From an uncultured Microcaldota archaeon (GTDB taxonomy: Archaea; Micrarchaeota; Micrarchaeia; Burarchaeales; Fermentimicrarchaeaceae): a DNA stretch of 58,921 nucleotides. Under the pieces are notes generated by a model. It made no database searches and had not been told where the DNA came from. It saw only the letters and a list, made by a program, of their open reading frames with translations. Location of the stretch: NCBI GenBank assembly GCA_903884505.1, contig CAISET010000025.1:1-58921 (forward strand), read 5' to 3'. Each line of letters opens with the position of its first letter. The stretch's first letter is position 1. The position numbers and the translations under genes were made by a program. Shown here in pieces: positions 28,008-58,921 of the stretch.

Positions 28008-28099
28008 TTGACTTTTTTCCCATGCGCCGTCGCTCATCAGCAGGGCGATTCGCTCTCGCTCTGCTCGCCGGCGCATATGGTAAAAACCTCAACTAAAAA
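28008..28099 (+). repeat. hairpin element E1 after tRNA-Ile
   Basis: Left arm TTGACTTTTTTCCC, core CATGCGCCGTCGCTC ... CTCGCCGGCGCATATGG with an extra AT bulge on the right side, right arm GGTAAAAACCTCAA, tail CTAAAAA. The arms pair 11 of 14 positions. Followed in tandem by E2. Confidence 0.8.
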
Positions 28100-28193
28100 T
28101 GACTTTTTTCCCATGCGCCGTCGCTCGCCAGCTTCAGCGGCTCGCTCTTCGCTGCGGCTCGCCGGCGCATATGGTAAAAACCTCAACTAAAAA
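28100..28193 (+). repeat. hairpin element E2, tandem copy
   Basis: Same ends as E1 (TGACTTTTTTCCC ... GGTAAAAACCTCAACTAAAAA in two parts) but a different loop. After it, GCTAGCGGAAAATGG looks like the tail of a further, lost element. Confidence 0.8.
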
Positions 28194-28215
28194 GTGCTAG
28201 CGGAAAATGGCATCT

Positions 28216-28225
28216 CATTTTTATA
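28216..28225 (+). promoter_or_regulatory. TATA box for the 135-aa membrane protein
   Basis: CATTTTTATAC, centred about 26 bases before ATG 28248; it fixes the start there and excludes the longer reading frame into the repeat. Confidence 0.55.
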
Positions 28226-28247
28226 CCTGAACCGAGCAATAGCGCTG

Positions 28248-28655
28248 ATGGCGGAGATAAAGACTGCTAATTCAGGCGCGCCCAGAACCACTTTGCAGGA
28301 GCAGAAGCCAGAGGTGCAGAAGCCTACGCCGCAAGCCACGGAAAAGCCTGCGCGCGATTCGTTCAAGGAGCTGAGAATCGAGGATGAAAAGAGCGAGGAG
28401 AAGCTCGGCCTGTGGGCCCGCTTCAAAGGCGCATTCGCCCATGGCGCTGCCGGGGCCGAGAACCAGGTGGCAGCAACAGGCGGCGTAATTGTCCTCGCCG
28501 GAATGGGCATGATGATCTACGAGGCAATAACCATCCCGGGCGCAGCAATCACTGCCTTGGATCCGCTCAACATAGTAATGCTGGGGCTGCTGTTTGCCGG
28601 TTCAGCGCTCATGCTTCTTGCGGACAACATCGGAAGGGCTGTCGCGAAGTATTAG
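28248..28655 (+). CDS. small membrane protein, 135 aa, unknown
   Basis: Start fixed at ATG 28248 by the TATA 26 bases upstream. The first about 60 residues are charged and Pro/Gln-rich (LQEQKPEVQKPTPQATEKPA). Two TM helices follow (AATGGVIVLAGMGMMIYEAI and LNIVMLGLLFAGSALMLLA). No family recognised. It stands alone between the tRNA-Ile repeats and the FBPase promoter. Confidence 0.65.
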   Translation: MAEIKTANSGAPRTTLQEQKPEVQKPTPQATEKPARDSFKELRIEDEKSEEKLGLWARFKGAFAHGAAGAENQVAATGGVIVLAGMGMMIYEAITIPGAAITALDPLNIVMLGLLFAGSALMLLADNIGRAVAKY

Positions 28656-28703
28656 GCGAAACGCGCCCAGCCGCTGCGCAATTCCCCCTCCGAACGCCGC
28701 GCA

Positions 28704-28716
28704 TCTTATAAATATT
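28704..28716 (+). promoter_or_regulatory. TATA box of the FBPase-aldolase unit
   Basis: CTTATAAATATTC; predicted TSS near 28737, giving a leader of about 24 nt with a GGAGG site before the TTG at 28760. Confidence 0.55.
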
Positions 28717-28759
28717 CGGACTAAATCCTATTGGCAGTGGTCGCGAGGAGGGGATCTAC

Positions 28760-29653
28760 TTGAACCTGGCGCAGAAGCTTGCAGCGGACAAGGTTGAGAA
28801 AGGCGTCGCGGACATCATCACATTTTTTGCGGACATGGCACCGACCCTTAGGGGCGGGTTCCTCACGCAAATACCCGAAATCGCGGGCACATCCAACGTC
28901 TACGGCGAGGAGCAGATGAAGCTCGACGTGTGGGCGGACAAGACCATTCTTGAGAAGCTGGTGGCGTCCAAGCGCGTCTGTGCGATATTCACCGAAGAGC
29001 AGCCGGAAATCGTCAAGGTTGCGGGCGGGGCGAACTACGCGGTGTGCATAGATCCGATGGACGGCTCATCCAACATCAAGACGAACCTAGCGATGGGGAC
29101 CATCGTCGCAATTTTCGGCGGAAGCGATGCGCTTGCCCAGGGAAAAACGCAGAAGGCGGCGCTCTACCTGCTCTTCGGGCCCGTGACCACCATGGTGGTG
29201 ACCTGGGGAAAGGGGGTCAACGAATTCATTTTCGACGGCAAGCAGTTCCTGGTGCGCGCGGAGGGAATCAAGCTTCCCGAGAAGCCGGGGGTCTACATTC
29301 CGGGCGGCCGCAAGGACAAATGGCTTCCCGGCTTCGCGAAATTCATCGCGGAAATCGAGAAGACGGACATGAAGTCGCGCAACAACGGCTGCATGGTTAG
29401 CGACGTGAACACGCTGCTCAAGTACGGCGGCATCTTCACGTATCCTGCGCAGGCGGACAAGCCGGACGGGAAGCTGCGCGTGCTCTGCGAGGCGAACCCG
29501 ATGGCATTCATCATCTCGCAGGCCGGGGGTTACGGCAGCGACGGCAAGAAGAGCCTGCTCGAAATCAAGCCGACCCACTCGGACCAGCGGACGCCGATTT
29601 ACCTCGGAAACACGGAGCTCGTGAAGAAAGTGGAATCGTATTTGAAAGCATGA
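28760..29653 (+). CDS. fructose-1,6-bisphosphatase, class I
   Basis: 297 residues. Start is TTG at 28760 with GAGGAGGGG at 8 bases. Metal and phosphate motifs: IFTEEQPE, CIDPMDGSSNIKTNLAMGTI (class I signature) and the C-terminal LCEANPMAFIISQAGG. It hydrolyses FBP to fructose-6-phosphate, the committed step of gluconeogenesis. Class I enzymes are unusual in archaea, which mostly use the bifunctional FBPA/P, so transfer is likely. FBP aldolase follows at 12 bases. Confidence 0.9.
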   Translation: MNLAQKLAADKVEKGVADIITFFADMAPTLRGGFLTQIPEIAGTSNVYGEEQMKLDVWADKTILEKLVASKRVCAIFTEEQPEIVKVAGGANYAVCIDPMDGSSNIKTNLAMGTIVAIFGGSDALAQGKTQKAALYLLFGPVTTMVVTWGKGVNEFIFDGKQFLVRAEGIKLPEKPGVYIPGGRKDKWLPGFAKFIAEIEKTDMKSRNNGCMVSDVNTLLKYGGIFTYPAQADKPDGKLRVLCEANPMAFIISQAGGYGSDGKKSLLEIKPTHSDQRTPIYLGNTELVKKVESYLKA

Positions 29654-29665
29654 GGGGTGTGTTGC

Positions 29666-30589
29666 ATGGAAATGAAAGATGTGAAAGTGCCGCTTGACGT
29701 CCCGCCGAACATGAGGGCGGAGTACGCGAAAAACTTCATTGCCGCGACCCGCGGCACGGGAAGGCTCATGCTGTTCGCCGGGGACCAGAAGGTGGAGCAC
29801 CTCAACGACGATTTCAGCGGCGCGGGAATAGCAGCCGACGACAACGACCCGGAACACATGTTCCGCATCGCGAGCAAGGGCACCATCGGAGTATTCGCAG
29901 TGCAGCTCGGTCTCGTCTCGCGTTACGGGGCGGACTACCCGAACATCCAATACCTGGTCAAGCTCAACTCCAAGACGCACCTCGTGAAGACCGAGCAGCA
30001 GGACCCGTACAGCTCGCAGATGACAAGCGTGGCTCAGGTCGTGGAATTCAAGAAGAACTCGGGGCTAAAAGTTTTAGTTGTGGGATACACCATCTATCTG
30101 GGAAGCGAATATGAGCACAAGATGCTCAGGCAGGCGATGGACATAATCCGCGACGCCCACGCGAACGGCCTGCTCGTTGTCCTCTGGATTTACCCGCGCG
30201 GCAAGGCGGTCAAGGACGAGAAGGACCCCCACCTGATTGCTGGCGCGACCGGAGTCGCGGCGACGCTGGGCTCGGATTTCGTGAAAGTCAACTACCCGAA
30301 GAAAGAGGGAGCGGACTCAGCGCAGATATTCAAGGAAGCGGTCGTTGCCGCGGGCAGGGTGCGCGTAGTGTGCGCCGGCGGCTCCTCGACCGATTCGGCG
30401 AAATTCCTAAAGCAGCTGCACGAGCAGATTCACATCAGCGGCGCTTCTGGGAACGCGACCGGGCGGAACATCCACCAAAAGCCCCTCGAGGAAGCCGTGG
30501 GGATGTGCAACGCCATATCCGCAATAACGCTCGGCAACAAGTCGGTCGAAGAGGCGCTCAAGGAGCTCAGGCCCTCCAAGATAGAGTGA
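29666..30589 (+). CDS. fructose-bisphosphate aldolase, archaeal class I (DhnA type)
   Basis: 307 residues from ATG 29666, preceded by GAGGGGTG. Contains LMLFAGDQKVEHLNDDF (N-terminal catalytic Asp region), LLVVLWIYPRGKAVKD, the Schiff-base Lys region GSDFVKVNYP, and the phosphate-binding VVCAGGSSTDSAKFL and ISGASGNATGRNIHQK. It forms FBP from DHAP and glyceraldehyde-3-phosphate. The tight link with FBPase gives a gluconeogenic pair. Confidence 0.92.
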   Translation: MEMKDVKVPLDVPPNMRAEYAKNFIAATRGTGRLMLFAGDQKVEHLNDDFSGAGIAADDNDPEHMFRIASKGTIGVFAVQLGLVSRYGADYPNIQYLVKLNSKTHLVKTEQQDPYSSQMTSVAQVVEFKKNSGLKVLVVGYTIYLGSEYEHKMLRQAMDIIRDAHANGLLVVLWIYPRGKAVKDEKDPHLIAGATGVAATLGSDFVKVNYPKKEGADSAQIFKEAVVAAGRVRVVCAGGSSTDSAKFLKQLHEQIHISGASGNATGRNIHQKPLEEAVGMCNAISAITLGNKSVEEALKELRPSKIE

Positions 30590-30641
30590 TTGCATCGTAA
30601 GCCTGCACAGACTTGTAGAGGATTCTTTCCAGGGCGTAGCC

Positions 30642-31169
30642 ATGGGCATGATGGACGGGCTCATCACGCTCCTAGGAATACTGATGGGCGTGGGCGCCGC
30701 AACCGGAGACGCGCAGCTCGTCATCATCTCGGGGCTCGTTGGCGGAATTGCGAACAGCTTCGGCACTTCCGTCGGCTTCTACACATCGGAGCAGGCGGAG
30801 CGCGGGCAGCAGATTGAGTTTTACAAGAAGAAGCGCAACGTGAAAATAAAGGAGACAAGCCGTTACATCCACTCGAAAACGGAAATTTACCTGGAAACCG
30901 GATTCAGTTTCCTTGCCGGCGCGGCTGCGCTCGTATTCCCCATCATCCCGTTTTTCTTCACCATTCCCATCTTCGAGTCAATGGCAATGAGCTTCGTCAT
31001 CTCAATCGCGATGCTCTACATGCTCGGCTACAAGATCGGCCAGCTGAACAACGAAAACGCCCTCAGGAGCGGCTTCAAATACATGCTGATCGGCATCCTC
31101 AGTTCGCTCGTCGCGCTAGTCATCGGCGAGTTCCTGAAAGGCGTGCTTCTTGGGAGCAGGGTAGTCTAG
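30642..31169 (+). CDS. VIT/CCC1-like membrane protein
   Basis: 175 residues from the first possible start. MGMMDGLITLLGILMGVGAA matches TM1 of the vacuolar iron transporter family; a cytoplasmic helix with EQAERGQQIEFYKKKR and three more TM segments follow. Probably transports Fe2+ or Mn2+. Upstream in the same frame SLHRLVEDSFQGVA looks coding and like the family N-terminus, but has no ATG, GTG or TTG before an in-frame TAG. The annotated start may therefore be too short. A possible decayed copy of its 3' end (TTGGGAGC repeated at 31150 and 31176) follows the stop. Confidence 0.75.
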   Translation: MGMMDGLITLLGILMGVGAATGDAQLVIISGLVGGIANSFGTSVGFYTSEQAERGQQIEFYKKKRNVKIKETSRYIHSKTEIYLETGFSFLAGAAALVFPIIPFFFTIPIFESMAMSFVISIAMLYMLGYKIGQLNNENALRSGFKYMLIGILSSLVALVIGEFLKGVLLGSRVV

Positions 31170-31216
31170 TTTTTGTTGGGAGCGGGCGTGCCTGAAACCC
31201 ACACGGCTCCCGAAAT

Positions 31217-31226
31217 CTTTTAAAGC
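31217..31226 (+). promoter_or_regulatory. TATA box of the MgtA-type ATPase
   Basis: CTTTTAAAGC; predicted TSS near 31248, about 107 bases before the ATG, which is an unusually long leader for this genome. Confidence 0.5.
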
Positions 31227-31249
31227 ATGTTTGTGCCAATCTGAACTGT

Positions 31250-31355
31250 AGGAAGGCAGAACCTTTTTTTCGCGGTTCGGGCGGCACCGGGCGCGGTGCT
31301 TCAAAGCATTCCGGCCCAGCGATGCTGGCAGCCAAGGGATGTGGAGAGGACGCGC
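31250..31355 (+). promoter_or_regulatory. structured 5' leader of the MgtA-type ATPase
   Basis: The leader holds hairpins GCACCG-GGCG-CGGTGC (31284-31299) and CCAGC-GAT-GCTGG (31316-31328), with a T7 run at 31264-31270. GAGAGGA precedes the ATG. Almost all other genes here are leaderless or have leaders under 35 nt, so a regulatory role (for example metal sensing) is possible but unproven. Confidence 0.4.
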
Positions 31356-33941: not shown

Positions 33942-34091
33942 AGAAGTAGTATGATGCGCCTCCGACGTTGTCAACGTCATCATCGCCCTTGCGGGCTAAG
34001 CGGTTGTTCATGTCTTCACAGGCGCAGTGAAATATGAATTTCTGGCTTAAAATAGGCACGGTTAAAAACCCTGCAACGCAATAGCCCGAAC

Positions 34092-34921: not shown

Positions 34922-34940
34922 TCCGTCGTGCGATAAGGTT

Positions 34941-34951
34941 TATATATTCGG
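34941..34951 (+). promoter_or_regulatory. TATA box of the Cys-rich lipoprotein
   Basis: TTTATATATT; predicted TSS near 34973 with GGTTGGTGTGA before ATG 35000, so this transcript has a leader of about 27 nt. Confidence 0.5.
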
Positions 34952-34999
34952 AGCGAGGAAACCTTCCACAACTGTACTAATAATGCGAGGTTGGTGTGA

Positions 35000-36028: not shown

Positions 36029-36052
36029 GCCAAGCCCCATTTTCTTTAATTT

Positions 36053-36634: not shown

Positions 36635-36694
36635 GGCAATACCGCCTATCCCGCTCCCTTGAAGTTAATAATGGTGATGCGAAACGGGGAAAGC

Positions 36695-36705: not shown

Positions 36706-36737
36706 TAGGTGGAGAAAAGTAAGCCTGCGTTATAGAC

Positions 36738-36789
36738 GCTCCGATCAGTTTCGCCCTCCGGGGCGAAATCTCGGAGCTCGCATCGGCTC
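36738..36789 (+). repeat. hairpin insertion E3 at the 5' end of tRNA-Glu
   Basis: The first ten bases of the tRNA (GCTCCGATCA) occur at 36738-36747, followed by hairpin TTTCGCCC-TCCG-GGGCGAAA, then TCGGAG (complement of the target CTCCGA), a spacer, and the intact tRNA start at 36790. The displaced 10 bases are an exact duplicate. Confidence 0.75.
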
Positions 36790-36893
36790 GCTCCGATCAT
36801 CTAGCTCGGTCAAGGATGCGGCCCTCTCAAGGCCGAAACCCGGGTTCAAATGGGAAATTCTCCGGAATTTTCCTGAATATCCCGGTCGGAGCA
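36790..36893 (+). tRNA. tRNA-Glu (CUC) with 29-nt intervening sequence in the T loop
   Basis: Acceptor GCTCCGA/TCGGAGC plus A; D stem ATCT/GGAT; anticodon stem CGGCC/GGCCG, loop CTCTCAA (anticodon CTC); T stem CCGGG/CCCGG. The T loop TTCAAAT is interrupted by 29 bases (about 36852-36880; ends ambiguous by 2) that form GGAAATTC-TCCG-GAATTTTCC. Splicing would restore a normal T arm. Could be an archaeal noncanonical intron or a small palindromic insertion. Confidence 0.85.
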
Positions 36894-36960
36894 CTTTTTT
36901 CGGTTGGCTACGCTCCTCGCTGCGCTCGTCGCTGCCATATCCGAAAAACCTGCACTAAAA
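36891..36960 (+). repeat. hairpin element E4 at the tRNA-Glu 3' end
   Basis: GCACTTTTTTCGG (whose GCA is the tRNA 3' end) ... core TTGGCTACGC/GCTGCCATATCCG ... right arm CCGAAAAACCTGCA, tail CTAAAA. The right arm's TGC complements the tRNA-derived GCA. Confidence 0.75.
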
Positions 36961-37035
36961 GCACTTTTTTCCGATGCTCCTCGCTCCGCTCGTCGCATAT
37001 CGTAAAAACCTGCACTAAAAAGCGGAGCACTTTTT
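36961..37035 (+). repeat. hairpin element E5 plus displaced tRNA-Glu 3' end
   Basis: Tandem second element GCACTTTTTTCCGATGC ... GCATATCGTAAAAACCTGCA, tail CTAAAA, followed by GCGGAGCACTTTTT (37022-37035). That last stretch repeats the tRNA 3' end and T-run, so it is the original terminator pushed about 135 bases away. Confidence 0.75.
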
Positions 37036-39287: not shown

Positions 39288-39433
39288 GGGCCCGTAGTCG
39301 AATGGCCCTTTTCCGAGCTCGCCGATGTTCCACGTCGGCTCGCGCGTAAAAGCGCCAGCGGAAAAGTGCTCGACAATGGTAAGACGTCAGTCTCACACAC
39401 TGAAGAGCGCCGGTTCGATCCCGGCCGGGCCCA
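39288..39433 (+). tRNA. tRNA-Val (CAC) interrupted in the D loop
   Basis: Acceptor GGGCCCG/CGGGCCC plus A; anticodon stem TCAGT/ACTGA with loop CTCACAC (anticodon CAC); T arm GCCGG TTCGATC CCGGC. The D arm GTC...GAC is split: after GTCGAATGG come about 74 extra bases ending CTCGACAATGG, then TAAGAC. Removal of 39306-39379 (or an equivalent shift) restores GTC-GAATGGTAA-GAC. Maturation needs splicing, unless the gene is dead. Confidence 0.85.
39306..39370 (+). repeat. hairpin element E6 inside tRNA-Val
   Basis: Left arm TGGCCCTTTTCCG (TGG from the tRNA), inner hairpin GAGCTCGCCGATG/CGTCGGCTCGC, right arm CGTAAAAGCGCCA, tail GCGGAAAAG. The right arm GCCA complements the tRNA-derived TGGC; the tail is the exact complement of CTTTTCCG. 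Confidence 0.75.
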
Positions 39434-39552
39434 TTTTCCGTTAACGCTTTTACGATATGGCAGCGAGTGAGCCCAGGTGCAGCTGCGCAACACCCGCAGG
39501 TGTTGCGGGAGACGCGCATTGGGTGCGAACGAGCGTTGCCATCGGAAAAGGG
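39434..39552 (-). repeat. hairpin element E7 after tRNA-Val (reverse orientation)
   Basis: Read on minus: TAACCCTTTTCCGATGGCAACGCTC (given in two parts: TAACCCTTTTCCG, ATGGCAACGCTC) ... CGCTGCCATATCG, right arm CGTAAAAGCGTTA, tail ACGGAAAAT. Contains an internal palindrome CAACACC...GGTGTTG. Fills the space between the tRNA and the promoter of the 39607 gene. Confidence 0.75.
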
Positions 39553-39575
39553 TTAGCCCACTCTCTTTCTTTAAC

Positions 39576-48107: not shown

Positions 48108-51100
48108 GTGGGCATCAGAAGCAGTAATAATCGCGCTCAAGCCGCAATAGAATTCCTCATCACCAACGGTTGGGCTTCAGAACCCCCGATGCGCTGGCTC
48201 GCTCTTCGTTCCAAACGAACTCGCTCGCCGCGCATATCGTCGGTTCCTGAACCTCCGCACGGCAAAGGCCAGGCTGCCATAGAGTTTCTTATTACAAATG
48301 GCTGGGCCATCCTCGTAGTCGTCATTCTTCTTGCTGTCCTCTTCTACATCGGAGTCCTCAGCCCACAAAACACCACTCCGAACACATGCATGTTCCAACC
48401 GGGCTTCTCCTGCTACACTTTCAAAGTCGGGAATGTAACCGGTTCCCTGGAGCTGGACTTCGGCCAGGCAACGGGCAGGTCTATTCAAATCACAGGAATC
48501 TCCTGCTCCCAGAACTCGACTGCCGCACTCCATACGTCTCCCCTTACGGAAGACATCACAGTCCCAAGCGGTGAGCATAGGTGGATAGTCGGGGGAACTT
48601 CCCCCAACAACGCAACCTGCGAAGGTGCGACAGCCGAAGCAGGTGCGAGATACAAAGGAACGGCCTGCGTCAGCTACATCGAATCCGGCACCAACACCCA
48701 AAGGCTGGTCTGCGGAGACATAAACGCAAGGCTGGAGCCAGCAAGCGCAGTCCAGCCAGGCGGAAGCCCAACAGCAACGCCATATCCTACTCCGCCGCCG
48801 GGAGCGATAAGCCTTACGGAATGCGGTCAGGTTTACGACCAGCCAGGCTACTACTATACTGACACCGACATGAATGACACCGACGGCGGCACCTGCATAA
48901 CCCTGACCACGGGCGCCAGCAATTCAATCCTCGACTGCTACGGCCACACCATCGACAGCACCAACCGGTGGAGCGGCATGGGTATCCATCTGCAAAGCGC
49001 CACAAACGTAACCGTACGGCACTGCACAGTAACCAATTTCGGGTACGGTATCCTCCTGGAGTCCTCCAATGGCAATAACTTAATGGACAACACTGCCAAT
49101 TCGAATCAGTATGGCATATTCCTAAGCTCTTCAAGCGACAACACCATCTCTGGCAACACTGCTAACTCGAGCGGCAACGAGGGTATCACCCTAGGCTCTT
49201 CAAACAACAACATCCTCATTAGCAACACCGCCAACCTAAACAGCAACGGCATCTTCCTAGCCTATTCAACTGACAACAACCTCACGGGCAACATCGTCCT
49301 TGCGAACGGCAACTTCGGTATCTATGCGGACACCAGCAGCAATCTCCTCACGGGCAACACCGCATGCCAGAACAGTGTGTCTGACGTCCAATGCGGCGCG
49401 CCCCAGAGCGAGGGCAACGGCAACATATGCAAGCCATACGGGGACACCGTCTGTTCCGGCAGCATCACCTGTAACTCCGGCTGCCCGCCGCTTCCTCCGC
49501 CGACATGTGCACCCGGCTTTGTGGTAAGCTCCTGCGAATGCGTGCTGAATGCTGCCGGCAACTACACGATACAAAGCGACCTGAACTATTCGGGCTCCAA
49601 CGACTGCATAGACATTACGGCAGATGATGTGAAGCTCGACTGCCAGCACCACAGCATCACTGCGACGAGCGGCGGATCCACCGGCATCATGGTAGCCAAT
49701 TGGAATACCGGCAGCATAAGCGGGGTGGCTGTCAAAAACTGCAACGTGAACAGCTTCGGCACGGGTATCTACGTGTATGGCTTGAGCGGCGGCAGCATAA
49801 CCCGCAACACCGCAGAGTCAAATACTGGCGGCGGGCTCATTGTGCAGTCCTCTTCTGGCAACAATCTAACCGGCAATTCCGCAAACTCGAACGGCGACTA
49901 CGGCATCTACCTGGACTCAAGCTCCAGCAACACTCTCCTCACGGGCAACGAGTTCAATTCCAACGCCGGCCAGGGGATGTACATCCAGTATGGCGCAACT
50001 GGAATCACCCTCACTGGCAACATCGCCTGCTACAATATATACGGCAATATCATCTGCGACCAGCCCCAGAGTGACGGCAGCGGCAATATCTGCCTGCCAG
50101 AAGGCCCTGATGCAGCATGCTCCTCCAGCGTCGACTGCGGCTCCGGCTGCACGCCAAGCCCACCAGCATGCGCATCAGGCGGGGTGATAACCTCCTGCAA
50201 CTGCATAATCAATTCGCCGGGTGACTACACCCTTGGCGGCGACCTGGTTTACAACAGCTATTACAGTTGCGTAACCTTCGGCTCCGCTGCGAGCGGTTCA
50301 ACCCTTGACTGCCATGGCCACACCATCAGCGGCATTTCGCAGAGCGGCTACGGCGTCCACCTTATGGGCGCGACCGGAATTACGGTGGAAAACTGCAATT
50401 TCACCAACCTCGGGGGCGGCATTGAGCTGGAGAACGCATATGGAAACACAATAATGCACAACAACGCCACCTTGAACAGCTATGGCATCGGGTTCAACAA
50501 TGCAAGCGGCAATACTATAACAGACAATTATGCGGGCTCGAACTCCTATGCAGGCTTTGACGTGGAGATATCGTCAGGCAACACCTTCACCGGCAACACG
50601 GCCACGGCGAGCGGCCATAACGACTTCAGCTGCGGGTATGGCGGTGCGAACATCGACGGGGGCAACACCTGCAACAGCCAGACCGGCTGCGGCTGGCTCA
50701 CGAGCTGTCCATCCCAAACGAGCTGCAGCGGCACGACGCTCACCGACTGCTGCGCAATCACATCCCCCGGCAGCTATTCCCTGGGCAATGACCTGACTAC
50801 TTCTGGGACGTGCATAACACTAGCAGGTACAGCAGGCGGCTCAACGCTCGACTGTGGCGGCTACAGCATAACTAGGTCGGGCAACTACGATGGCGTCGGA
50901 GTCCTCGTGCAGGGCGCGGGAGGCGTCACAGTGCAGGGCTGCAGCATAAGCGGGTTCATGGAAGGCATCCACCTATATGCAAGCAACGGCAGCATGGTCG
51001 AAGGCAACACACTCACTTCGAACTGGGATGGCATAGTCCTTGACACTTTGAGCGGCACCACTATAACCGGCAACAGCGCCGGCGTCTTCCAGTCCGGCGG

Positions 51101-52721
51101 CAACGGAATCCTCCTATCCGGCTCGACTGGCAACACGGTAACGGGCAACAACGCCAGCTCGGTACAATACGGCCGCGGGATATACCTGCTGTCCTCGAGC
51201 AACAACAACGCCATCTCGGGCAACACCGTAAATTCAGACACCTATGGCATCTACACTGAACGTTCGGACGGCAACACCATCTCGGGCAACAACGCCAGCT
51301 CAAACCAGGTGGGCATCTACCTGGACCGGAACTCGGATGGCAACACCATCACTGGGAATACTGCAGAATCGAACAGTGGCGGCGGCATGCTCCTTGGCAG
51401 CTCGACGGGCAACACTGTCTCGGGCAACAACTTCGGCTCGAACCAATACGGCATCGAGCTGTACTCCGCTGCCGGCAACACCATAACCGGCAACACTGCC
51501 AACTCGAACCTGGAAAACGGCATCTATTCGCAGTCATTAAGCAGCAATACTTTCTCCGGCAACACCATCTGCAACAACCTGGATGGCGACATGAGCTGCG
51601 ATTCAACGCAGACCGACGGCACCGGCAACGCCTGCCAGACGCCCGACGCATGCGGGATCTCCTGCGACTCCAGCTGCCCGGCGCCTGAGCCGCCAGCCTG
51701 CGCTTCCGGCTGGGTCGTTCACTCCTGTCCATGCACCCTGTTCGTCCCAGGCGACTACACGATGGACAGCGACATTACCTATTCAGGCGGCAATTACCCC
51801 TACACCTGCATAACAATACCTACAGCCGGCAGCAACTCCACGCTCGACTGCCACGGGTACAGTATCAGCCGCTCGGATGGCAACGGCATCGGCATCAACC
51901 TCAATGGCGCAAGCAACGTCACGATTACGGACTGCGCGGTGCATGGCTTCGGGTATGGCATCTACCTGCAGGACTCGAACGGAAACACTTTCGCAGGCGA
52001 CTCTCCGACCGGCAACAACAACGACTTCTTCTGCAGCAGCTCCTCCTCGAACACCGATAGCAGCAACACCTGCTACACACAGAACGGCTGCAGCGACTGG
52101 CTCTCAAGCTGCCCACAGGCATACCCGACCTGCGGCAGCTCAATAACCGACTGCTGCAGGATAACCTCAACCGGCACCTACACGGTGCAGAACGACATAA
52201 CGACTTTCCGCTCCACATGCATAGAAATCAGTGGCAGCGGAGGCGGCCCCACTATCGACTGCCATGGCCACAGCATAACCGGGCCGGGCAAGCAGCGCAG
52301 CGGCACGATCGGCATCGCCTTCAGCGGCGGTGGGACGGTGCAGAACTGCAGCATCAGCAACTTCTGGACCGGCATCCTCGCAGCACACGAAGACGTGGTG
52401 TGGGACAACACGCTCAGCAACTGCGGCGGATACGGAATCCGTGCGTTCGGCGGAAACAATCTCATCACGCACAACACCGCCACCTCCAGCAACATAGGGA
52501 TAGAGCTGGAAAACTCCCTCAACACTGTCAGCAACAATAGCGTTAGCGGCAACAGGTATGGATTCGAGTTCTATTCTACGAGCGGCGGCAGTGTCGCCAA
52601 CAACTCGGCAACCGGCAATTCGGACAACGACTTCCGCTGCGAAAGCGGCGGCTCCAGCAACGACCTCGGGGGCAACATCTGCAGCAACAAGGATGACTGC
52701 GGCTGGCTCACCTGCCACTGA
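48108..52721 (+). CDS. giant class III-signal beta-helix surface protein with in-frame element
   Basis: 1537 residues from GTG 48108. It begins GIRSSNNRAQAAIEFLITNG, then a 31-residue foreign stretch (SEPPMRWLALRSKRTRSPRI ... SSVPEPP), then a second QAAIEFLITNGWA leading into the usual TM helix and the about 150-residue domain shared with the 23567 protein. Then come about six modules, each with a Cys-paired lead-in (TSCNCIINSPGDYTLGGDL type) and NosD/CASH beta-helix turns (SGNTITGNTANSN). Most likely exported and displayed on the cell surface. The mature signal is now about 44 residues from the N-terminus. Confidence 0.88.
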   Translation: MGIRSSNNRAQAAIEFLITNGWASEPPMRWLALRSKRTRSPRISSVPEPPHGKGQAAIEFLITNGWAILVVVILLAVLFYIGVLSPQNTTPNTCMFQPGFSCYTFKVGNVTGSLELDFGQATGRSIQITGISCSQNSTAALHTSPLTEDITVPSGEHRWIVGGTSPNNATCEGATAEAGARYKGTACVSYIESGTNTQRLVCGDINARLEPASAVQPGGSPTATPYPTPPPGAISLTECGQVYDQPGYYYTDTDMNDTDGGTCITLTTGASNSILDCYGHTIDSTNRWSGMGIHLQSATNVTVRHCTVTNFGYGILLESSNGNNLMDNTANSNQYGIFLSSSSDNTISGNTANSSGNEGITLGSSNNNILISNTANLNSNGIFLAYSTDNNLTGNIVLANGNFGIYADTSSNLLTGNTACQNSVSDVQCGAPQSEGNGNICKPYGDTVCSGSITCNSGCPPLPPPTCAPGFVVSSCECVLNAAGNYTIQSDLNYSGSNDCIDITADDVKLDCQHHSITATSGGSTGIMVANWNTGSISGVAVKNCNVNSFGTGIYVYGLSGGSITRNTAESNTGGGLIVQSSSGNNLTGNSANSNGDYGIYLDSSSSNTLLTGNEFNSNAGQGMYIQYGATGITLTGNIACYNIYGNIICDQPQSDGSGNICLPEGPDAACSSSVDCGSGCTPSPPACASGGVITSCNCIINSPGDYTLGGDLVYNSYYSCVTFGSAASGSTLDCHGHTISGISQSGYGVHLMGATGITVENCNFTNLGGGIELENAYGNTIMHNNATLNSYGIGFNNASGNTITDNYAGSNSYAGFDVEISSGNTFTGNTATASGHNDFSCGYGGANIDGGNTCNSQTGCGWLTSCPSQTSCSGTTLTDCCAITSPGSYSLGNDLTTSGTCITLAGTAGGSTLDCGGYSITRSGNYDGVGVLVQGAGGVTVQGCSISGFMEGIHLYASNGSMVEGNTLTSNWDGIVLDTLSGTTITGNSAGVFQSGGNGILLSGSTGNTVTGNNASSVQYGRGIYLLSSSNNNAISGNTVNSDTYGIYTERSDGNTISGNNASSNQVGIYLDRNSDGNTITGNTAESNSGGGMLLGSSTGNTVSGNNFGSNQYGIELYSAAGNTITGNTANSNLENGIYSQSLSSNTFSGNTICNNLDGDMSCDSTQTDGTGNACQTPDACGISCDSSCPAPEPPACASGWVVHSCPCTLFVPGDYTMDSDITYSGGNYPYTCITIPTAGSNSTLDCHGYSISRSDGNGIGINLNGASNVTITDCAVHGFGYGIYLQDSNGNTFAGDSPTGNNNDFFCSSSSSNTDSSNTCYTQNGCSDWLSSCPQAYPTCGSSITDCCRITSTGTYTVQNDITTFRSTCIEISGSGGGPTIDCHGHSITGPGKQRSGTIGIAFSGGGTVQNCSISNFWTGILAAHEDVVWDNTLSNCGGYGIRAFGGNNLITHNTATSSNIGIELENSLNTVSNNSVSGNRYGFEFYSTSGGSVANNSATGNSDNDFRCESGGSSNDLGGNICSNKDDCGWLTCH
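48138..48308 (+). repeat. element E9 with flanking 13-codon duplication
   Basis: Copy 1 (48138-48176) and copy 2 (48270-48308) both encode QAAIEFLITNGWA, but 11 of 13 codons differ, all synonymously. The element between runs from TCAGAACCCCCGATGCGC to GCGCATATCGTCGGTTCCTGA. Insert length 132 bases (44 codons), in frame with no stop. Confidence 0.85.
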
Positions 52722-52795
52722 CCCTTTTCCCAGGCGCAGCCAGCTCCGCGGGCGCCAGGTAAAAGCGTCAACGGAAAACGCCACTGACCCTTTTC
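52714..52795 (+). repeat. hairpin element E10 at the stop codon of the giant gene
   Basis: GCCACTGACCCTTTTC occurs at 52714-52729 (containing the TGA stop) and again exactly at 52780-52795. Between: core CCCAGGCGC...GCGCCAGG, right arm GGTAAAAGCGTCA, tail ACGGAAAAC. The right arm GTCA complements the stop-codon TGAC. The next 70 bases to the OB-fold gene show no gene. Confidence 0.75.
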
Positions 52796-52865
52796 GGTTA
52801 TGCCGCCGCCCATCGGCCTCGTGGACGTTTCACTAGGGCTGAAAAATAAACTAAAATGGGGCTAG

Positions 52866-53159
52866 CTACTTCACTACCGTCATTTTCCCGTATTTTCCGC
52901 ACGAGATCTGGACGTTGCCCTTGAATTCGGACACCCAGCCGTTCTCGATCTTCACCTTGTCCCCGATTGCGACCTTCTCAACGTCGTCGCCCCAGAGGGA
53001 AAGCGTGATCTCGCCGCTGTCGTCCTTCAAGGTTGCGTCCGCGACCCTCGTCCTCTTGCCGAACCTCGTGACGACTTCGCGCGGCTCGCTTACCGCAGTC
53101 ACTTCAGCTTCCACTGTCACGTTGCCTGTCCCGGCCTTCAATTCGTTTATCTTCGCCAT
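52866..53159 (-). CDS. OB-fold single-strand-binding (RPA-like) protein
   Basis: 97 residues from ATG 53159 (GAGGTG six bases before). KINELKAGTGNVTVEAEVTA ... VADATLKDDSGEITLSLWGDD ... VKIENGWVSEFKGNVQISCG is a single OB fold of the archaeal RPA/SSB group, with the LKDDSG-I-L-LWGDD signature. It binds nucleic acid; too short for a full replication protein, so an accessory role is likely. TATA CCATTATAATAC at about 53206-53216. Confidence 0.85.
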   Translation of the reverse strand: MAKINELKAGTGNVTVEAEVTAVSEPREVVTRFGKRTRVADATLKDDSGEITLSLWGDDVEKVAIGDKVKIENGWVSEFKGNVQISCGKYGKMTVVK

Positions 53160-53236
53160 CAGTAACACCTCAACCCTTGCGGGGCTATCTATGCCATGCT
53201 AGTATTATAATGGTATTTCTTCCCAGGTCGCGCGCG

Positions 53237-53316
53237 TGAGCCTTTTCGGATGGCCACGCTCGCTCGCACCAGCAGGGCTCGCGCGCTGCCATATCCTAAA
53301 AGCCTCAAGGGAAAAA
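53237..53316 (+). repeat. hairpin element E11
   Basis: Left arm TGAGCCTTTTCGG, core GGATGGCCACGCTCGC ... GCGCTGCCATATCC, right arm CCTAAAAGCCTCA, tail AGGGAAAAA. It ends exactly at the stop codon of the displaced deoxyhypusine synthase fragment. Confidence 0.75.
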
Positions 53317-53397
53317 TTAGCCGAGCGCGCCAGCCATCATCAGGGGCAGCAAGATAGTCGCATCCCCGTCAACCGTCACATACCTCGCCTTCTCCTT
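53317..53397 (-). repeat. displaced 3' end of deoxyhypusine synthase
   Basis: Reads KEKARYVTVDGDATILLPLM then MAGALG-stop on minus. The gene itself ends KEKARYVTVDGDATILLPLM then LAGALY-stop at 53526. 24 of 26 residues agree, but most codons that can differ do differ. Flanked on both sides by hairpin elements (E11, E12). Confidence 0.85.
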
Positions 53398-53513
53398 TGA
53401 CTTTTTTCCCAATCGCCCGGGTTCACAGCCCGGCGATACGCGATTTGCGCTGTGGCGCAAATGCGCCCCTTTGCCCTTCGGGCAAATCGGGTGGTAAAAA
53501 CCTCAACTAAAAA
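53398..53513 (+). repeat. hairpin element E12
   Basis: TGACTTTTTTCCC ... GGTAAAAACCTCAA, tail CTAAAAA: the same ends as E1/E2 at tRNA-Ile, 25 kb away. The interior is different: sub-hairpins CCCGGG...CCCGG, TTTGCGC-TGTG-GCGCAAA and TTTGCCC-TTC-GGGCAAA. Inserted between the functional and displaced 3' ends of the deoxyhypusine synthase gene. Confidence 0.8.
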
Positions 53514-53525
53514 TCTTCAGATGAC

Positions 53526-54446
53526 TCAGTATAAAGCTCCTGCAAGCATGAGCGGAAGCAAGATTGTCGCATCTCCATCGACTGTGACGTAACGGGCTTT
53601 TTCTTTTACCTTTCCCCAGGAGACGGCCTCGGTCATCCGCGCCCCGCTCAGGCTTCCGTCATATTGGGAGGCAGTCGTAATATACACCGCATAATCCAGC
53701 CCGCCCTTGTACTGGTTCCACCAGATTACATGGTGCTTGGAGATTCCGCCGCCAATCATTAGCGCGCCGGTTTTCTTCGCCTCGAATATGAGGTTGCTCA
53801 GTTCGGTTTCGTCCTGAAGAAGGTTGACGCGGTATTTCGTGCCGTTCGCGAACGTAAACACGTTCGCCCCGAACGCCCCATCGAAAAACCCGGGGGCATA
53901 AATCGGAATGTTGTGCTTCGCAGCCTGGTGGAGAATAGACCCCTCATCCTTCACCCTTTTCCCGAACTCGTGGATGAGCTCCCTTCCTCCCCACTCCGGC
54001 TTCTGGGAATAAAGCTCCTTGAGGGTGGGCTGCATTCCGTTCTCCAGTGTCTGGCCGTAGTTCTTGTCCGGAATCAGGACATTTCCCAGCCTGTAAATAT
54101 GCTCGTGGTGCAGCTTCGCATCGTCCATCTCGAACTGCCCGGCGTAGTATTTGCCGCCCCATGCCCTCGCCAAATCATGGTCCATGGTCCCGCAGGTTGT
54201 AATCACCGCATCGAATTTCGGGACCATTTCCGCCAAAATGCCGCGCAAGCCGGTTGAGACAAGGCACGCGGGAAAGGAGAGGAAATTGGTGCATTCCTTG
54301 TCCGCGAGCATGTCCTTCACAATCTCGGAGCCGGTCGCGAGATGCTTCGCCCCGAACCCGCCGGCCTCCTTCATCTGCGCAACTATCTCCGAGGCAGGAA
54401 TGCCCTTCCGCAATTTCATATCCTTTACTTCCTTTCCAAGCACCAT
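53526..54446 (-). CDS. deoxyhypusine synthase
   Basis: 306 residues. NAD-binding VITTCGTMDHDLARAWGG, catalytic loop ISKHHVIWWNQYKGGLDYAV with the active Lys, and ITTASQYDGSLSGA. It makes the deoxyhypusine residue on initiation factor aIF5A using spermidine, and is universal in archaea. The last about 26 codons (from SWGKVKEK on) have unusual codons (CGT, GGA, TTA, ACA) compared with the rest and with the displaced copy downstream. This suggests the 3' end was replaced when the element entered. Confidence 0.94.
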   Translation of the reverse strand: MVLGKEVKDMKLRKGIPASEIVAQMKEAGGFGAKHLATGSEIVKDMLADKECTNFLSFPACLVSTGLRGILAEMVPKFDAVITTCGTMDHDLARAWGGKYYAGQFEMDDAKLHHEHIYRLGNVLIPDKNYGQTLENGMQPTLKELYSQKPEWGGRELIHEFGKRVKDEGSILHQAAKHNIPIYAPGFFDGAFGANVFTFANGTKYRVNLLQDETELSNLIFEAKKTGALMIGGGISKHHVIWWNQYKGGLDYAVYITTASQYDGSLSGARMTEAVSWGKVKEKARYVTVDGDATILLPLMLAGALY

Positions 54447-54477
54447 TTTTGCACCGGATGGATTCTGCCTTCCGGCT

Positions 54478-54485
54478 TTTTATAA
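54478..54485. promoter_or_regulatory. shared TATA between deoxyhypusine synthase and M24 peptidase
   Basis: TTTTATAA, readable in both directions. ATG 54446 on minus and ATG 54515 on plus lie about 34 bases either side, leaving leaders of only about 7 nt. Confidence 0.55.
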
Positions 54486-54514
54486 CTGAACCTCGCGAAA
54501 TATGCAGTGAGAGA

Positions 54515-55804
54515 ATGGCTAGGACTATCCATGCTGACGGGAAGAATGACGTCCAGACTGCCGTAGGCGCCCTGCCGATAACGAAGCCTCCGCTCGTTTC
54601 CGAGCAAGTGACGAAATACATGAAGGCGGAAAAGATTGACGCCTGGATCTCCTTCCAGTATTCGGACAAGCTAAAGAACGACGCGATGAGCAAGACGTTC
54701 CACGTCCCGAAAGGCCTTACGAACGCCACCACCTCGGTCTTTTTTGCAGACGGGCGGGAGCCGCTCCTTTTCGTTGCGAGGATTGAGGCACCGAAGTTCG
54801 AGCACTTCAAGGAATACGGGACAGTCATCCCGTGCACCGATGCCGACGAGTTCATGAAGCTTTTCGCGGAGAAGGTGACGGGCTGCAAAAAGATTGCGAT
54901 GGAGTACGGCGAGAACATGCTCTCCGCGTCCGCGCTCGTCCCCGCAAGGGTGAAGGAGTCCGTGCAGAAGGCGACGAATGCAGAGATAGTGCCGTCAATG
55001 GGCGTCATCCAGCACGCCGTCGTGCCGCTGAGCCCGCCTGCATTCAGGGAACACGAGGATGCCGTAGCCAAGCTCGACAGGATAATGGAAGGCTGCATGA
55101 AACTGATTCGTGATGGCGTTGAAAACGGGAAGCCGGTGACGGAATACGGATTGCGGGAATTCATATCTAAGAAGTACAAGGAGTTTGGGATGGTCTCATC
55201 CCACATCCAGCACGTGGTCGCCGTGAACGAGCACATCGCCAACATCCACTACGAGGCGCCGGAGAAGGGAAGCGCGGAAATCCGGAAGGGCGATGTCGTG
55301 CTCATCGACATCTGGGCGAAGAACGACAAGGAGGATGCCGCGTATGCGGATATAACCTGGATGTGCTTCGTTGGCAAGGAGAAGGACATCCCCAAGAAAT
55401 ACGCGGATGCATTCAAGGTTCAGGTTGAGGCAAGCCATATGGCAATGGACCACATCAAGAAGGCGTTCAAAGAGGGGAAGCCCATCATCCCATGCGAGGT
55501 CGACGCCGTAGCGCGCAACCACATACTCAAGAACGGCTACCCCGACTACCCCCATTCGACTGGCCACAACCTCGGGACCGGGAGTGCCCAGGGCGAAGGC
55601 GTGATGATATCGAAGAAACTTACCTTCCCGCTCGTGCCATACTCGTGCTACACCATCGAGCCCGGAATTTACGTGACGGAGATTGAAAATGGAACGGAAA
55701 ACTTCCTCTACGGCGCTAGGACGGAGTTTAACTTTTACCTGCAGCCTATCGCGGGCCCCACCATAACGTCGCGTGTCCAGAAAGAGATGGTCTGCCTCTA
55801 CTGA
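54515..55804 (+). CDS. M24-family metallopeptidase (Xaa-Pro dipeptidase-like)
   Basis: 429 residues from ATG 54515, set by the promoter. Creatinase-type N-domain (KYMKAEKIDAWISFQYSDKL), then pita-bread domain with metal ligands Asp in VVLIDIWAKND, Asp in ADITWMCF, His in YPHSTGHNLGTG, Glu in TIEPGIYVTE and Glu in RTEFNFYL. All five ligands present, so it should be an active di-metal peptidase on proline-containing peptides. Unusual: about 35 extra N-terminal residues. Its stop abuts the convergent AMP phosphorylase gene. Confidence 0.88.
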   Translation: MARTIHADGKNDVQTAVGALPITKPPLVSEQVTKYMKAEKIDAWISFQYSDKLKNDAMSKTFHVPKGLTNATTSVFFADGREPLLFVARIEAPKFEHFKEYGTVIPCTDADEFMKLFAEKVTGCKKIAMEYGENMLSASALVPARVKESVQKATNAEIVPSMGVIQHAVVPLSPPAFREHEDAVAKLDRIMEGCMKLIRDGVENGKPVTEYGLREFISKKYKEFGMVSSHIQHVVAVNEHIANIHYEAPEKGSAEIRKGDVVLIDIWAKNDKEDAAYADITWMCFVGKEKDIPKKYADAFKVQVEASHMAMDHIKKAFKEGKPIIPCEVDAVARNHILKNGYPDYPHSTGHNLGTGSAQGEGVMISKKLTFPLVPYSCYTIEPGIYVTEIENGTENFLYGARTEFNFYLQPIAGPTITSRVQKEMVCLY

Positions 55805-57373
55805 TTATTTCTCAGCCTTCTCAGGCTTCCACTCGAAGACGCGGTTTTCGCCCATCCTTCCCAGGATGATTTCCTCAAGCTCAATCGCATTCACTTCCTC
55901 AACCATATCAATGGCCTCGCTGAGCTTCGTTTCGCTCTCGGAGACAATCTCGTAAAGCAGCTGCCCCTTCTTCACCTTGTCCCCGCTCTCCACATGCAGA
56001 ATCATGCCCGCGCCCTTCGACTTCGGCGCGCCCGCAGCCCGCGCAATCCTGTTTACCGCCTGGTTATCCACCAGGTGTATCCTGCCATCCGCCTCGGCGA
56101 AGATCTGGTGCCTGTACTGGCCTATTGGCAAATCATCGGGCTTCACCTTCGGGTTGCCCCCCTGCGCCTCGATAATCTCCTTCATCTTCTCATAGGCCTT
56201 CCCGCTCTGCAGCAAATCAAGCGAAACGGCATAGCCCCTTCCAGGCTCAACCTTGCCGCTCAGCTCGAGCACAGCGCCAGCGAGCTTGCAGGACTTCTGC
56301 GTCAAATCCGAAGGCCCGCTCCCCTGCAGGGCCTTCAGGACGTCACGGCATTCGAGCGCGGGCCCTATCCCCTCGCCCACCGGGTCCCTTCCGTAAGTGA
56401 TGAAGACCTCGCATTTCATCCCGAGTTTCGCGCCTATGACTATGAACTCGCGCGCCAAATCGTTCGCCATCTCCATGCTCTCTATCTTCGCGCCCCTGCC
56501 AACCGGTATGTCTATCACCACATAGTCCGCGCCCACGCTCTTCTTCTTCGCGAGCACCGAAGCGACCATCACCCCCTTCGGGTCCAGCCTGAGCGGGTGC
56601 CTTATCCGTATCAGCTTGTCATCCGCGGCCGCGAGGTTCATCTCCCCTCCCCATGCGATGCATCCGCGCGTCTTCAGCACTATCCTCTTCATCTCCTCAA
56701 GCGACAGCTCGACCTTGGCCAGCACTTCCATCGTGTCCGCTGTCCCCGCCGCACTCGTTATCGAGCGCGAGCTCGTCTTCGGCATGTAAAGGCCAGATGC
56801 CGCAACAATCGGCACGATGAGCATCGTGGTCCTGTTCCCCGCCACCCCGCCCGTGCAGTGCTTGTCCACAACCGGATGCACTCCCAGCTCCAGCGTCTTG
56901 CCCGAATTCACTATTGCCTTCGTAAGCGCTACCGTCTCGTCCGTTCCCAGCCCCCTGATATACAGGGAGGTTATGAAAGAAGCAAGCTCCACATCGCTCA
57001 GCTTGTTGTCCATCAGCTCCGTGATTACCGTCTCTATCTCCTTCGGTTCCAGCATCCTCCCGTCCATCTTCTTTTTTATTATCTCGATTGACGCCGGTTG
57101 CCCCGTCGGCGAGAGCGTTAGCTGGTCCCCCCTCTTCACCCCCAGCTTCTCCGCAATATCCGCAAAAAGCCCGACCTCACCCCTTTTCACCATCGTGCTG
57201 CTCACGTCAACAATCGCCACTGCCTGCTTTAAGTCCCTCTCGACAATCACGCGGTCCGCAGTATATATGCCATTCTCGTGCGCCTCATCCTCGTTCAGGA
57301 GGACGATGTTCGTTCCTGTCCTGACATCGAACACGCGCGCCTCAAATTTCGTTTTTAATTTGTGGACAGCCAT
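55805..57373 (-). CDS. deoA: AMP phosphorylase
   Basis: 522 residues, the length of archaeal AMP phosphorylase (bacterial thymidine phosphorylases are about 440). N-terminal about 85-residue archaeal domain, then GKTLELGVHPVVDKHCTGGVAGNRTT (in two parts: GKTLELGVHPVVDKH, CTGGVAGNRTT), SSRSITSAAGTADTME and GGEMNLAAADDKLI. It converts AMP plus phosphate to adenine and ribose-1,5-bisphosphate. The R15P isomerase gene lies four bases upstream in the same operon, giving the first two steps of the archaeal AMP pathway. Confidence 0.94.
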   Translation of the reverse strand: MAVHKLKTKFEARVFDVRTGTNIVLLNEDEAHENGIYTADRVIVERDLKQAVAIVDVSSTMVKRGEVGLFADIAEKLGVKRGDQLTLSPTGQPASIEIIKKKMDGRMLEPKEIETVITELMDNKLSDVELASFITSLYIRGLGTDETVALTKAIVNSGKTLELGVHPVVDKHCTGGVAGNRTTMLIVPIVAASGLYMPKTSSRSITSAAGTADTMEVLAKVELSLEEMKRIVLKTRGCIAWGGEMNLAAADDKLIRIRHPLRLDPKGVMVASVLAKKKSVGADYVVIDIPVGRGAKIESMEMANDLAREFIVIGAKLGMKCEVFITYGRDPVGEGIGPALECRDVLKALQGSGPSDLTQKSCKLAGAVLELSGKVEPGRGYAVSLDLLQSGKAYEKMKEIIEAQGGNPKVKPDDLPIGQYRHQIFAEADGRIHLVDNQAVNRIARAAGAPKSKGAGMILHVESGDKVKKGQLLYEIVSESETKLSEAIDMVEEVNAIELEEIILGRMGENRVFEWKPEKAEK

Positions 57374-57377
57374 CCTC

Positions 57378-58298
57378 TCACTCCAACCCGAATTCTTTCA
57401 TCGCCATTGCAACAAACCCCTGCGGGGTGACTACTCCCTTCTCGGTTATGTAGCCGGTAATATATTTCGCATCCGTCCTGTCGAAAGCGTAATTGAGGAT
57501 TTTCACGCCTTTCATCTCCTTAGGGTCCGCAATCTCTTGCGCATCCCTTTCCTCCATCTCCGTCATCCTTCCCCAAATCGTCAATGGGTCGAACTTGTAG
57601 AGCTCAGCGCAGGAGAAGAACCTCACGTCGCTCTCCTTCGCAATAGTCGCAATCCCCGCAGTGCCGATCTTGTTTACCAAATCCCCGGTGCTTGTAATTG
57701 AGTCCGCGCCCACGAGCACCAAATCCGTTTTCCCCATCATGCTCTTCGCAGCGGAATCCACGACAAGCGTGACATCCACGCCCGCACCAGCCAATTCCTT
57801 AGCCGAAATCCTCCCCTGATACAGGGGCCTCGTTTCCGTGCAGGTGACTTTCGGCGCCTTTCCCATCTCCTGCGCCCTCTTCAAAATTCCCATGAGCGTA
57901 TGTGAATGGCAATGAATCAGGATTCTGGCATCAATCGGAAGCTCCTTCGCCCCGAACTCCGCAATTTTCCCCGCATTCTCCTCAAACTTCTTCAGCAAAA
58001 TCTTCTCCTCGTCAGCAATCGCCTTCCTCGCCTCCCCGACCCCCTTCGGCTTCCTCTTCTGCATCTCGGCAAAAAGAAAGCGCAGGGAATTCTGCAGCAT
58101 GGGCTCGGTCGGCCTCGCGTTCGCGAGCGCATCGGCCGCAACCAGCAAATCGCTCCTGAAGGCCTCAAGGCTCTTCGCGTCGCTCTCCTTCGCCTGCAGC
58201 GCCATGGCCTCGACCGCTGCCTGCGCCACCTTCCGCGCCCCCTGGATTTTCAGGGATTTTATCTCTCCGCAGGTTTTCTCCACCTTCCTTGAAAGCAT
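57378..58298 (-). CDS. ribose-1,5-bisphosphate isomerase (eIF2B-related)
   Basis: 306 residues. eIF2B/MtnA-type fold with ILIHCHSHTLMGILKRAQEM (catalytic Cys-x-Ser pattern), CTETRPLYQGRISAKEL, and LVLVGADSITSTGDLVNKIGT (catalytic Asp). Makes ribulose-1,5-bisphosphate from R15P. First gene of the operon with AMP phosphorylase. RuBisCO, the next enzyme, is not in the window. The promoter is the shared TATA at 58318-58325, about 24 bases upstream: leaderless. Confidence 0.92.
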   Translation of the reverse strand: MLSRKVEKTCGEIKSLKIQGARKVAQAAVEAMALQAKESDAKSLEAFRSDLLVAADALANARPTEPMLQNSLRFLFAEMQKRKPKGVGEARKAIADEEKILLKKFEENAGKIAEFGAKELPIDARILIHCHSHTLMGILKRAQEMGKAPKVTCTETRPLYQGRISAKELAGAGVDVTLVVDSAAKSMMGKTDLVLVGADSITSTGDLVNKIGTAGIATIAKESDVRFFSCAELYKFDPLTIWGRMTEMEERDAQEIADPKEMKGVKILNYAFDRTDAKYITGYITEKGVVTPQGFVAMAMKEFGLE

Positions 58299-58317
58299 AA
58301 GTTGGGTAGGCGCACAG

Positions 58318-58325
58318 TTATTAAA
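58318..58325. promoter_or_regulatory. shared TATA between R15P isomerase and the third surface-protein gene
   Basis: TTATTAAA, centre 58321.5; the ATG at 58298 (minus) is 23.5 bases away and the GTG at 58349 (plus) 27.5 bases. Confidence 0.55.
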
Positions 58326-58348
58326 AAGCGTATGCGAAAGTGGAAGGC

Positions 58349-58921
58349 GTGCATCGCATTAATCGCAAGGCACAGTCAGAACCTTTGGATGCCATCGTCG
58401 CTCGCACCCAATGTGCGTCCCCCGCAACACCCTCGGGTGTTGCGCAGTTGCACCGGGGCTCGTTCCTTGGCACATCCAGTCGCCTCCGGCGACTGCCTGT
58501 TGCCTCGTTTTGCTCGGCAACATCCAAGGTTCCTGAACCTCCAAGCCGCAAGGCACAGGCAGCCATTGAATTCCTCATCACAAACGGCTGGGCAATCTTA
58601 GTCGTCCTCATCCTTCTTGCAGTCCTCTTCTACATCGGAGTCCTCAGCCCACAGAACACTACCCCGAACACCTGCCTCTTCCAACCCGGCTTCTCCTGCT
58701 ACACATTCAAAGTCGGGAATGAAACCGGCTCATTAGAATTGGATTTCGGCCAGGCAACCGGAAAATCAATCCAGGTCACAGGAATCTCCTGCTCCCAGAA
58801 CTCAACTGCCGCGCTTCACACGTCTCCACTTAATGAGCGCGTCACAGTTCCATCCGGGGAGCACAGATGGATAACCGGGGGGAACTCAATCAACACCGGC
58901 ATCACCTGCGAAGGCGCAACA
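58349..58921 (+). CDS. class III-signal surface protein with in-frame element, 3' end outside window
   Basis: GTG 58349 is set by the TATA. The frame reads HRINRKAQ, then 61 residues from a repeat (SEPLDAIVARTQC ... ATSKVPEPPS), then RKAQAAIEFLITNGWA and the TM helix and domain shared with the 23567 and 48108 proteins (SPQNTTPNTCLFQPGFSC). No stop occurs through the element. The usual beta-helix part would lie beyond the window. The N-terminus is thus about 60 residues longer than in its relatives. Confidence 0.8.
   Translation, partial: MHRINRKAQSEPLDAIVARTQCASPATPSGVAQLHRGSFLGTSSRLRRLPVASFCSATSKVPEPPSRKAQAAIEFLITNGWAILVVLILLAVLFYIGVLSPQNTTPNTCLFQPGFSCYTFKVGNETGSLELDFGQATGKSIQVTGISCSQNSTAALHTSPLNERVTVPSGEHRWITGGNSINTGITCEGAT
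58364..58558 (+). repeat. element E13 with exact 12-bp flanking duplication
   Basis: CGCAAGGCACAG at 58364-58375 and again at 58547-58558. Between them: TCAGAACCTTTGGATGCC ... GGCAACATCCAAGGTTCCTGA, with inner palindromes (CAACACCC TCGG GTGTTG; GTCGCCTCCGGCGAC). The start TCAGAACC and end GGTTCCTGAACCTCC are the same as in E9. Length multiple of three. Confidence 0.8.

Follow-up and report, generated by a model that had tools for sequence, protein, structure and literature searches.

The hairpins repeated along the window, that is, the whole stretch of 58,921 nucleotides analysed here (contig C25 of G000, a Micrarchaeota genome of 1.51 Mb), are in our judgement likely to be copies of one "introner-like" family of archaeal bulge-helix-bulge (BHB) introns, which is spreading and shares a conserved module with two folds. 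Two points are new: that such a module occurs outside RNA genes too, and that its outer triplet is re-matched.

The initial annotation had described one family of hairpin elements in the window. We re-examined nine of them, E1, E2, E4, E5, E6, E7, E10, E11 and E12 (E3, E8 and E9 were left out), and all nine are present. The right end of type A, AAAGCG-YNN-R-CGGAAA (AAAGCGYNNRCGGAAA), has 37 exact matches genome-wide and none when the pattern is reversed as a control, while the whole-genome search for the right end of the T6 type gave 11 exact matches. The constant shell is formed by NNR-CCC-UUUU on the left and AAAA-GCG-YNN-R-CGGAAAA on the right, NNR pairing with YNN, and it encloses a variable GC-rich core, whose length is as little as a few bases in relatives and reaches more than 200 in the source genome. 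The whole element is about 35-260 bp long and has no gene inside. The elements tested match no known Rfam family and the element search gave no match in viral contigs; as the outer triplet varies freely, the integron attC boxes RYYYAAC / GTTRRRY are not found in the type-A rows. The copies in the window and the genes which they adjoin are the following.

27933-28007, + strand: tRNA-Ile(GAT); E1/E2 start directly past its 3' end
28009-28098, + strand: E1, T6 type, TGA-C-TTTTTT-core-AAAAACC-TCA-ACTAAAA
28100-28192, + strand: E2, T6 type, in tandem with E1; core 97-100% identical to the C28 and C19 copies
36790-36893, + strand: tRNA-Glu(CTC), whose final GCA is the outer triplet of E4
36891-36960, + strand: E4, T6 type, outer pair GCA/TGC
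36961-37020, + strand: E5, T6 type, GCA/TGC; direct repeat of the tRNA-Glu end, CGGAGCACTTTTT, at about 37023
39288-39433, + strand: tRNA-Val(CAC), D loop interrupted by E6; uninterrupted in G001
39303-39365, + strand: E6, type A, TGG/CCA, D-loop intron module of tRNA-Val
39434-39555, - strand: E7, type A, TAA/TTA, antisense, immediately past the 3' end of tRNA-Val
52719-52778, + strand: E10, type A, TGA/TCA; ORF 48108-52721 stops in frame at its TGA; then a repeat of GCCACTGACCCTTTTC
53237-53315, + strand: E11, variant shell TGAGCCTTTT / AAAAGCCTCAAGGGAAAA
53314-53397, - strand: diverged second copy of the C-terminal end of gene 53526-54446; over 25 codons, 18 synonymous and 2 non-synonymous differences
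53398-53512, + strand: E12, T6 type, TGA/TCA

The gene at 53526-54446 probably codes for a deoxyhypusine synthase. Other repeats were noticed in the window and elsewhere. The T loop of tRNA-Glu(CTC) contains a separate short AT-rich insertion (about 36850-36880), unrelated to the hairpin family, and the first 10 bases of the same tRNA (GCTCCGATCA) are doubled at 36738-36799 with a GC-rich hairpin between them; the 5' end of a tRNA-Ala (GGGCTTGTAGCGCAA) is likewise doubled around a hairpin on another contig (L225). Another nested hairpin, at 58375-58555, has a different outer shell, CAG-AACCTTTGGATG ... CATCCAAGGTTC-CTG, and its outer triplet is complementary too. At 28176-28207 a T6 tail is followed by AAAAAGTGCTAGCGGAAAA, and L018 (contig C8) has two tail units in succession, AAAAGCG-TTA-ACGG-AAAAGCG-TTC-ACGG, both suggestive of stacked elements. 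Tandem arrays of the element occur in L155 (G086, four 50-bp units) and L156 (G058, three right ends spaced 42 bp), and imperfect 90-bp repeats form an array at 1-1690 of the window. A sub-type with three T/A (CCCTTTC ... TAAAGCGTTC) is found in L228, L222 and L238, for example behind tRNA-Cys, and a second repeated hairpin, starting AGAACCCCCGATGC, lies near tRNA genes in both genera, G000 and G002 (L228, L166).

The arms of the element vary together. Among 69 distinct type-A rows, drawn from the source genome and its class, the left triplet before CCCTTTT complements YNN exactly in 59, the left arm being the nearest upstream CCCTTTT, chosen blind to matching. Shuffling 10,000 times gave a mean of 7.6 matches and a maximum of 18, so that the match withstood the comparison with shuffled flanks by which the initial annotation proposed to refute it. 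In the formal count 96% of the cells are paired and there are 122 two-sided changes, compared to 39 expected, and slid structures fail the same test; the proposal that structure is selected or copied is upheld. Four outer pairs had been said to co-vary: three do vary and match, but the fourth (C-G) is fixed. The base R following YNN had been overlooked. It covaries with Y, forming standard pairs in 69 rows out of 69, and three positions are therefore changing together. Two mismatches had been described as fixed: C.C is indeed invariant in all 69 rows, while C.T, typical of the source genome, is replaced by C-G, T-A or C.C in relatives. The right-end constants belonged to the search pattern, and hence their invariance partly reflects how the rows were selected. 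On the left the pattern constrained CCC less, accepting C or T at its first two positions.

The right arm matches its left neighbour beyond chance even where the left triplet surely belongs to the host, as in the GCA of tRNA-Glu (E4/E5) and in U36-A37 of tRNAs for Thr, Ser, Arg and Lys. The initial annotation had assigned the left bases to the host gene altogether. This is right for these tRNAs but does not hold in general: pyrB ends with TAA-CCCTTTT in the source genome and with TGA, without any element, in G002 and G003. Judging from this comparison, the pyrB stop triplet TAA, the usual left triplet of the element, is probably element-derived.

The copies inside RNA genes are the ones which can be related to splicing. 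According to a test for an acceptor stem and a T-arm around the element, which was positive at 7 of 753 control positions, 39 copies interrupt a tRNA gene; a few more lie 4-5 nt past a tRNA 3' end. (Automatic excision followed by ARAGORN recovered part of the tRNAs, often with a misplaced anticodon, and the acceptor/T-arm test was used instead.) With a stricter cut-off, 38 tRNA-embedded copies are in sense orientation and none is antisense, which points to a constraint at the level of RNA. Most of the tRNA copies are predicted BHB introns, located at the anticodon, D or T loop. The hosts recognized by inspection in the source genome include Thr(TGT), Thr(CGT), Arg(CCT), Ser(GCT), Leu(CAA), Leu(GAG), Gly(TCC), Gln(TTG), His(GTG), Lys(CTT) and Val(CAC), the last one in the window. 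For Thr(TGT), Val(CAC), Ser(GCT) and Lys(CTT), no second, intact gene came up in an Rfam tRNA search, although this search overlooks tRNAs whose insertions are long or several. Two further copies, both in relatives (L180, L207), are hosted by 23S rRNA genes; a group I intron, at L207:2368-2696, adjoins one of these genes. In tRNA and 23S rRNA genes alike, the copies sit 0-5 nt past the predicted 5' splice site.

The mean score of a BHB scan was 13.6 for tRNA-embedded copies (50 copies, partly picked by eye), 9.8 for random positions and 9.4 for the other copies. In several predicted BHBs the central helix contains one mismatch, and no good canonical BHB was obtained for some introns, such as that of Thr(CGT) in L025. 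By predicted structure, the tRNA copies are BHB introns; the copies at stop codons and at tRNA 3' ends are not. In a first predicted fold (for example L178), NNR lies exactly past the 3-nt 5' bulge and NNR:YNN supplies the BHB with its inner helix. In a second one (L172, L146, L151), the left arm is predicted to pair with the tail and the next bases (CCCUUUUC with GGAAAAGGG), abutting the central helix. As both need the same left arm, the module can adopt either fold but not the two at once. The splicing endonuclease EndA is represented in the source genome by a 396-aa frame matching PF01974 twice.

This leads to the following picture. EndA would excise the introns and RtcB would join the exons. 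The transcripts would need the stem, which would explain both the compensatory changes and the sense-only orientation. New introns would arise whenever a copy of the element is made behind an exon or a gene end. At least some of the cases at gene ends involve recombination with the DNA of a diverged relative.

Other copies lie at gene ends. Several of them (E10, L004, L016, L024) start exactly on an in-frame stop codon and one (L026) just past it; others lie 2-4 nt off the stop of an antisense gene. Beside some copies the 3' end of the gene is doubled, over 13-78 bp, and some of the second copies come from diverged DNA. In three doubled gene ends, 24 codons differ synonymously between the copies and 3 non-synonymously, while 19.5 non-synonymous differences would be expected under free drift, and none of 20,000 runs reached the observed value. 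This predominance of synonymous differences means that each of the two had been a functional gene end before they came together, and hence that diverged DNA was brought in by recombination. For these three cases a simple target-site duplication was rejected, as both copies had evolved as coding sequence.

Gene ends of this sort would also suit a mini-integrative element that a tyrosine recombinase moves. Its attachment sites would be the 3' ends of tRNA genes and of protein genes, with NNR/YNNR as the crossover region and the tRNA introns as a by-product. The copies do adjoin tRNA 3' ends and stop codons, the doubled ends look as if the element brought its own gene end, YNNR lies between two constant half-sites, and intron gain by integrating elements has already been proposed (Sugahara 2012, PMC3293823). 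The initial annotation had suggested looking for a HUH/Y1 or tyrosine recombinase gene; for the latter (PF00589) we found three matches in G000. However, there are eight in G001, which carries no element, and none in the carriers G003 and G014 (some carrier assemblies are incomplete), so that the recombinase does not track the element across the genomes compared. Integration alone moreover explains neither the sense-only orientation nor the BHB fit, and we regard this explanation as unlikely. In G001 (C1:341443-414983) three integrase pairs are spaced by exactly 25,989 bp, which suggests a tandem triplication of a 26-kb element.

The distribution of the family bears on whether it moves at all. 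The pattern AAAAGCGYNNRCGGAAAA is present in 19 of the 147 genomes searched, source included, with 5-31 copies in the richer ones and 0 or 1 with the reversed control, and the element occurs in several Micrarchaeota families. G001, from the same family and devoid of elements, has intronless genes for Thr(TGT), Gly(TCC), Val(CAC), Arg(CCT), His, Leu(CAA) and Leu(GAG), although gain and loss were not polarised by a tree. The relative L045, which shares genes and has no elements, yielded no empty sites. The cores are at least 85% identical in 23 pairs of copies, whose flanks are unrelated in nearly all cases; one cross-genus pair (G000-G002) has cores 97% identical, and one pair made of a T6 and a type-A copy has cores 86% similar. 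In 17 of the 23 pairs the triplet differs, and each time it still matches locally. This shows that the triplet and the shell change while the core is kept.

One may suppose, on the contrary, that these are purely old BHB introns, inherited vertically with a conserved RNA module such as a folding switch, that nothing is mobile, and that the copies outside tRNA genes are relics or fragments. The same tRNA carries introns, at the same position, in different genera for Thr(CGT), Gln(TTG), Arg(CCT) and Lys(CTT); these common introns could be old and vertically inherited, the core alone changing. The sense-only orientation and the two alternative folds would agree with this as well. As an account of the whole family we nevertheless give it little credence: it does not foresee that near-identical cores recur at unrelated loci and across genera, that seven orthologues in the same family lack the intron, that copies at stop codons are intact and have matched arms, or that the distribution is so patchy.

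The initial annotation had thought of hairpins handled as single strands. In that case the elements would be non-autonomous ssDNA transposons of IS200/IS605 or REP type, whose hairpin ends are handled by a Y1 HUH transposase and whose target is chosen by base-pairing. Imperfect hairpins with a fixed mismatch and a guide-like pairing with the left flank are what one would look for. Yet Y1_Tnp has no match in G000, G002 and G003, while five control genomes gave matches; the tRNA copies are never antisense; duplications, some of diverged origin, lie beside some copies, whereas IS200/IS605 insertion makes none; and an inherited guide should stay constant, while the triplet differs in 17 of the 23 near-identical pairs. 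This makes the idea very improbable, and it was abandoned. Still less credible are template-switching palindromes made by a polymerase at hairpins with no element behind them: the arms do match the flanks and duplications do adjoin the hairpins, but the same 21 constant bases (the right-end ones being part of the search pattern) and the C.C mismatch recur in 69 distinct rows from many genera, and this mismatch, inherited from the element, would not be carried by a fresh copy of the flank.

Group I and group II introns were rejected as candidates, as the elements tested have no Rfam match and no reverse transcriptase (RVT_1) was found in G000.

We thus come back to a spreading family of BHB introns. 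A bolder version of it, which we hold as possible though rather doubtful, is an archaeal introner which would rewrite YNN-R at each insertion to fit the 5' exon, so that each landing in an RNA gene would be spliceable at once by the host endonuclease; its route of mobility would not be of HUH, DDE, retro or homing-endonuclease type. In any case, the triple covariation of the exon-side base, the guide and the tail is a rule which any mechanism must explain. The family also gives access to a question still unsolved, the way in which archaeal tRNA genes acquire introns. A genome can hold dozens of copies, sister genes lack the introns, nearly identical copies stand at different sites and some copies lie outside RNA genes, which makes intron gain traceable and testable.

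Finally we compare the family with known systems. The hairpins of IS200/IS605 and REP elements are imperfect and make a short guide-like pairing with their flank; the present elements differ from them by the absence of any Y1 HUH match in the genome, their sense-only orientation in RNA genes, the re-matched triplet and, perhaps, the flanking duplications. Eukaryotic introners are mobile copies which turn into introns in many genes, but they are spliceosomal, while the hairpin introns are predicted to be of the BHB/EndA kind. The group I introns of Micrarchaeota (PMC6125680) were set aside, since they lie in rRNA and are far larger. In Caldiarchaeum, a tRNA gene is disrupted by a mobile element (PMC3293823); intron gain is there too tied to an integrating element and to duplicated tRNA fragments, but that element is 1.8 kb long and has a recombinase, while ours is short and gene-free. 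The splicing endonuclease of ARMAN, epsilon2, has relaxed BHB substrates, with introns at many tRNA positions (PMC12397907). The host group, the occurrence of introns at many tRNA positions and, here, one frame with two endonuclease domain matches are alike; the passages of that work which concern us describe the enzyme and not a conserved repeated intron module. BHB junctions are common to our family and to the known transposition of tRNA introns. Here, however, the lineage is another one, the Micrarchaeota, the module is defined by a covarying triplet, a fixed mismatch and a constant tail, and it is found not only in tRNA genes but also in 23S rRNA genes, behind stop codons and behind tRNA 3' ends.
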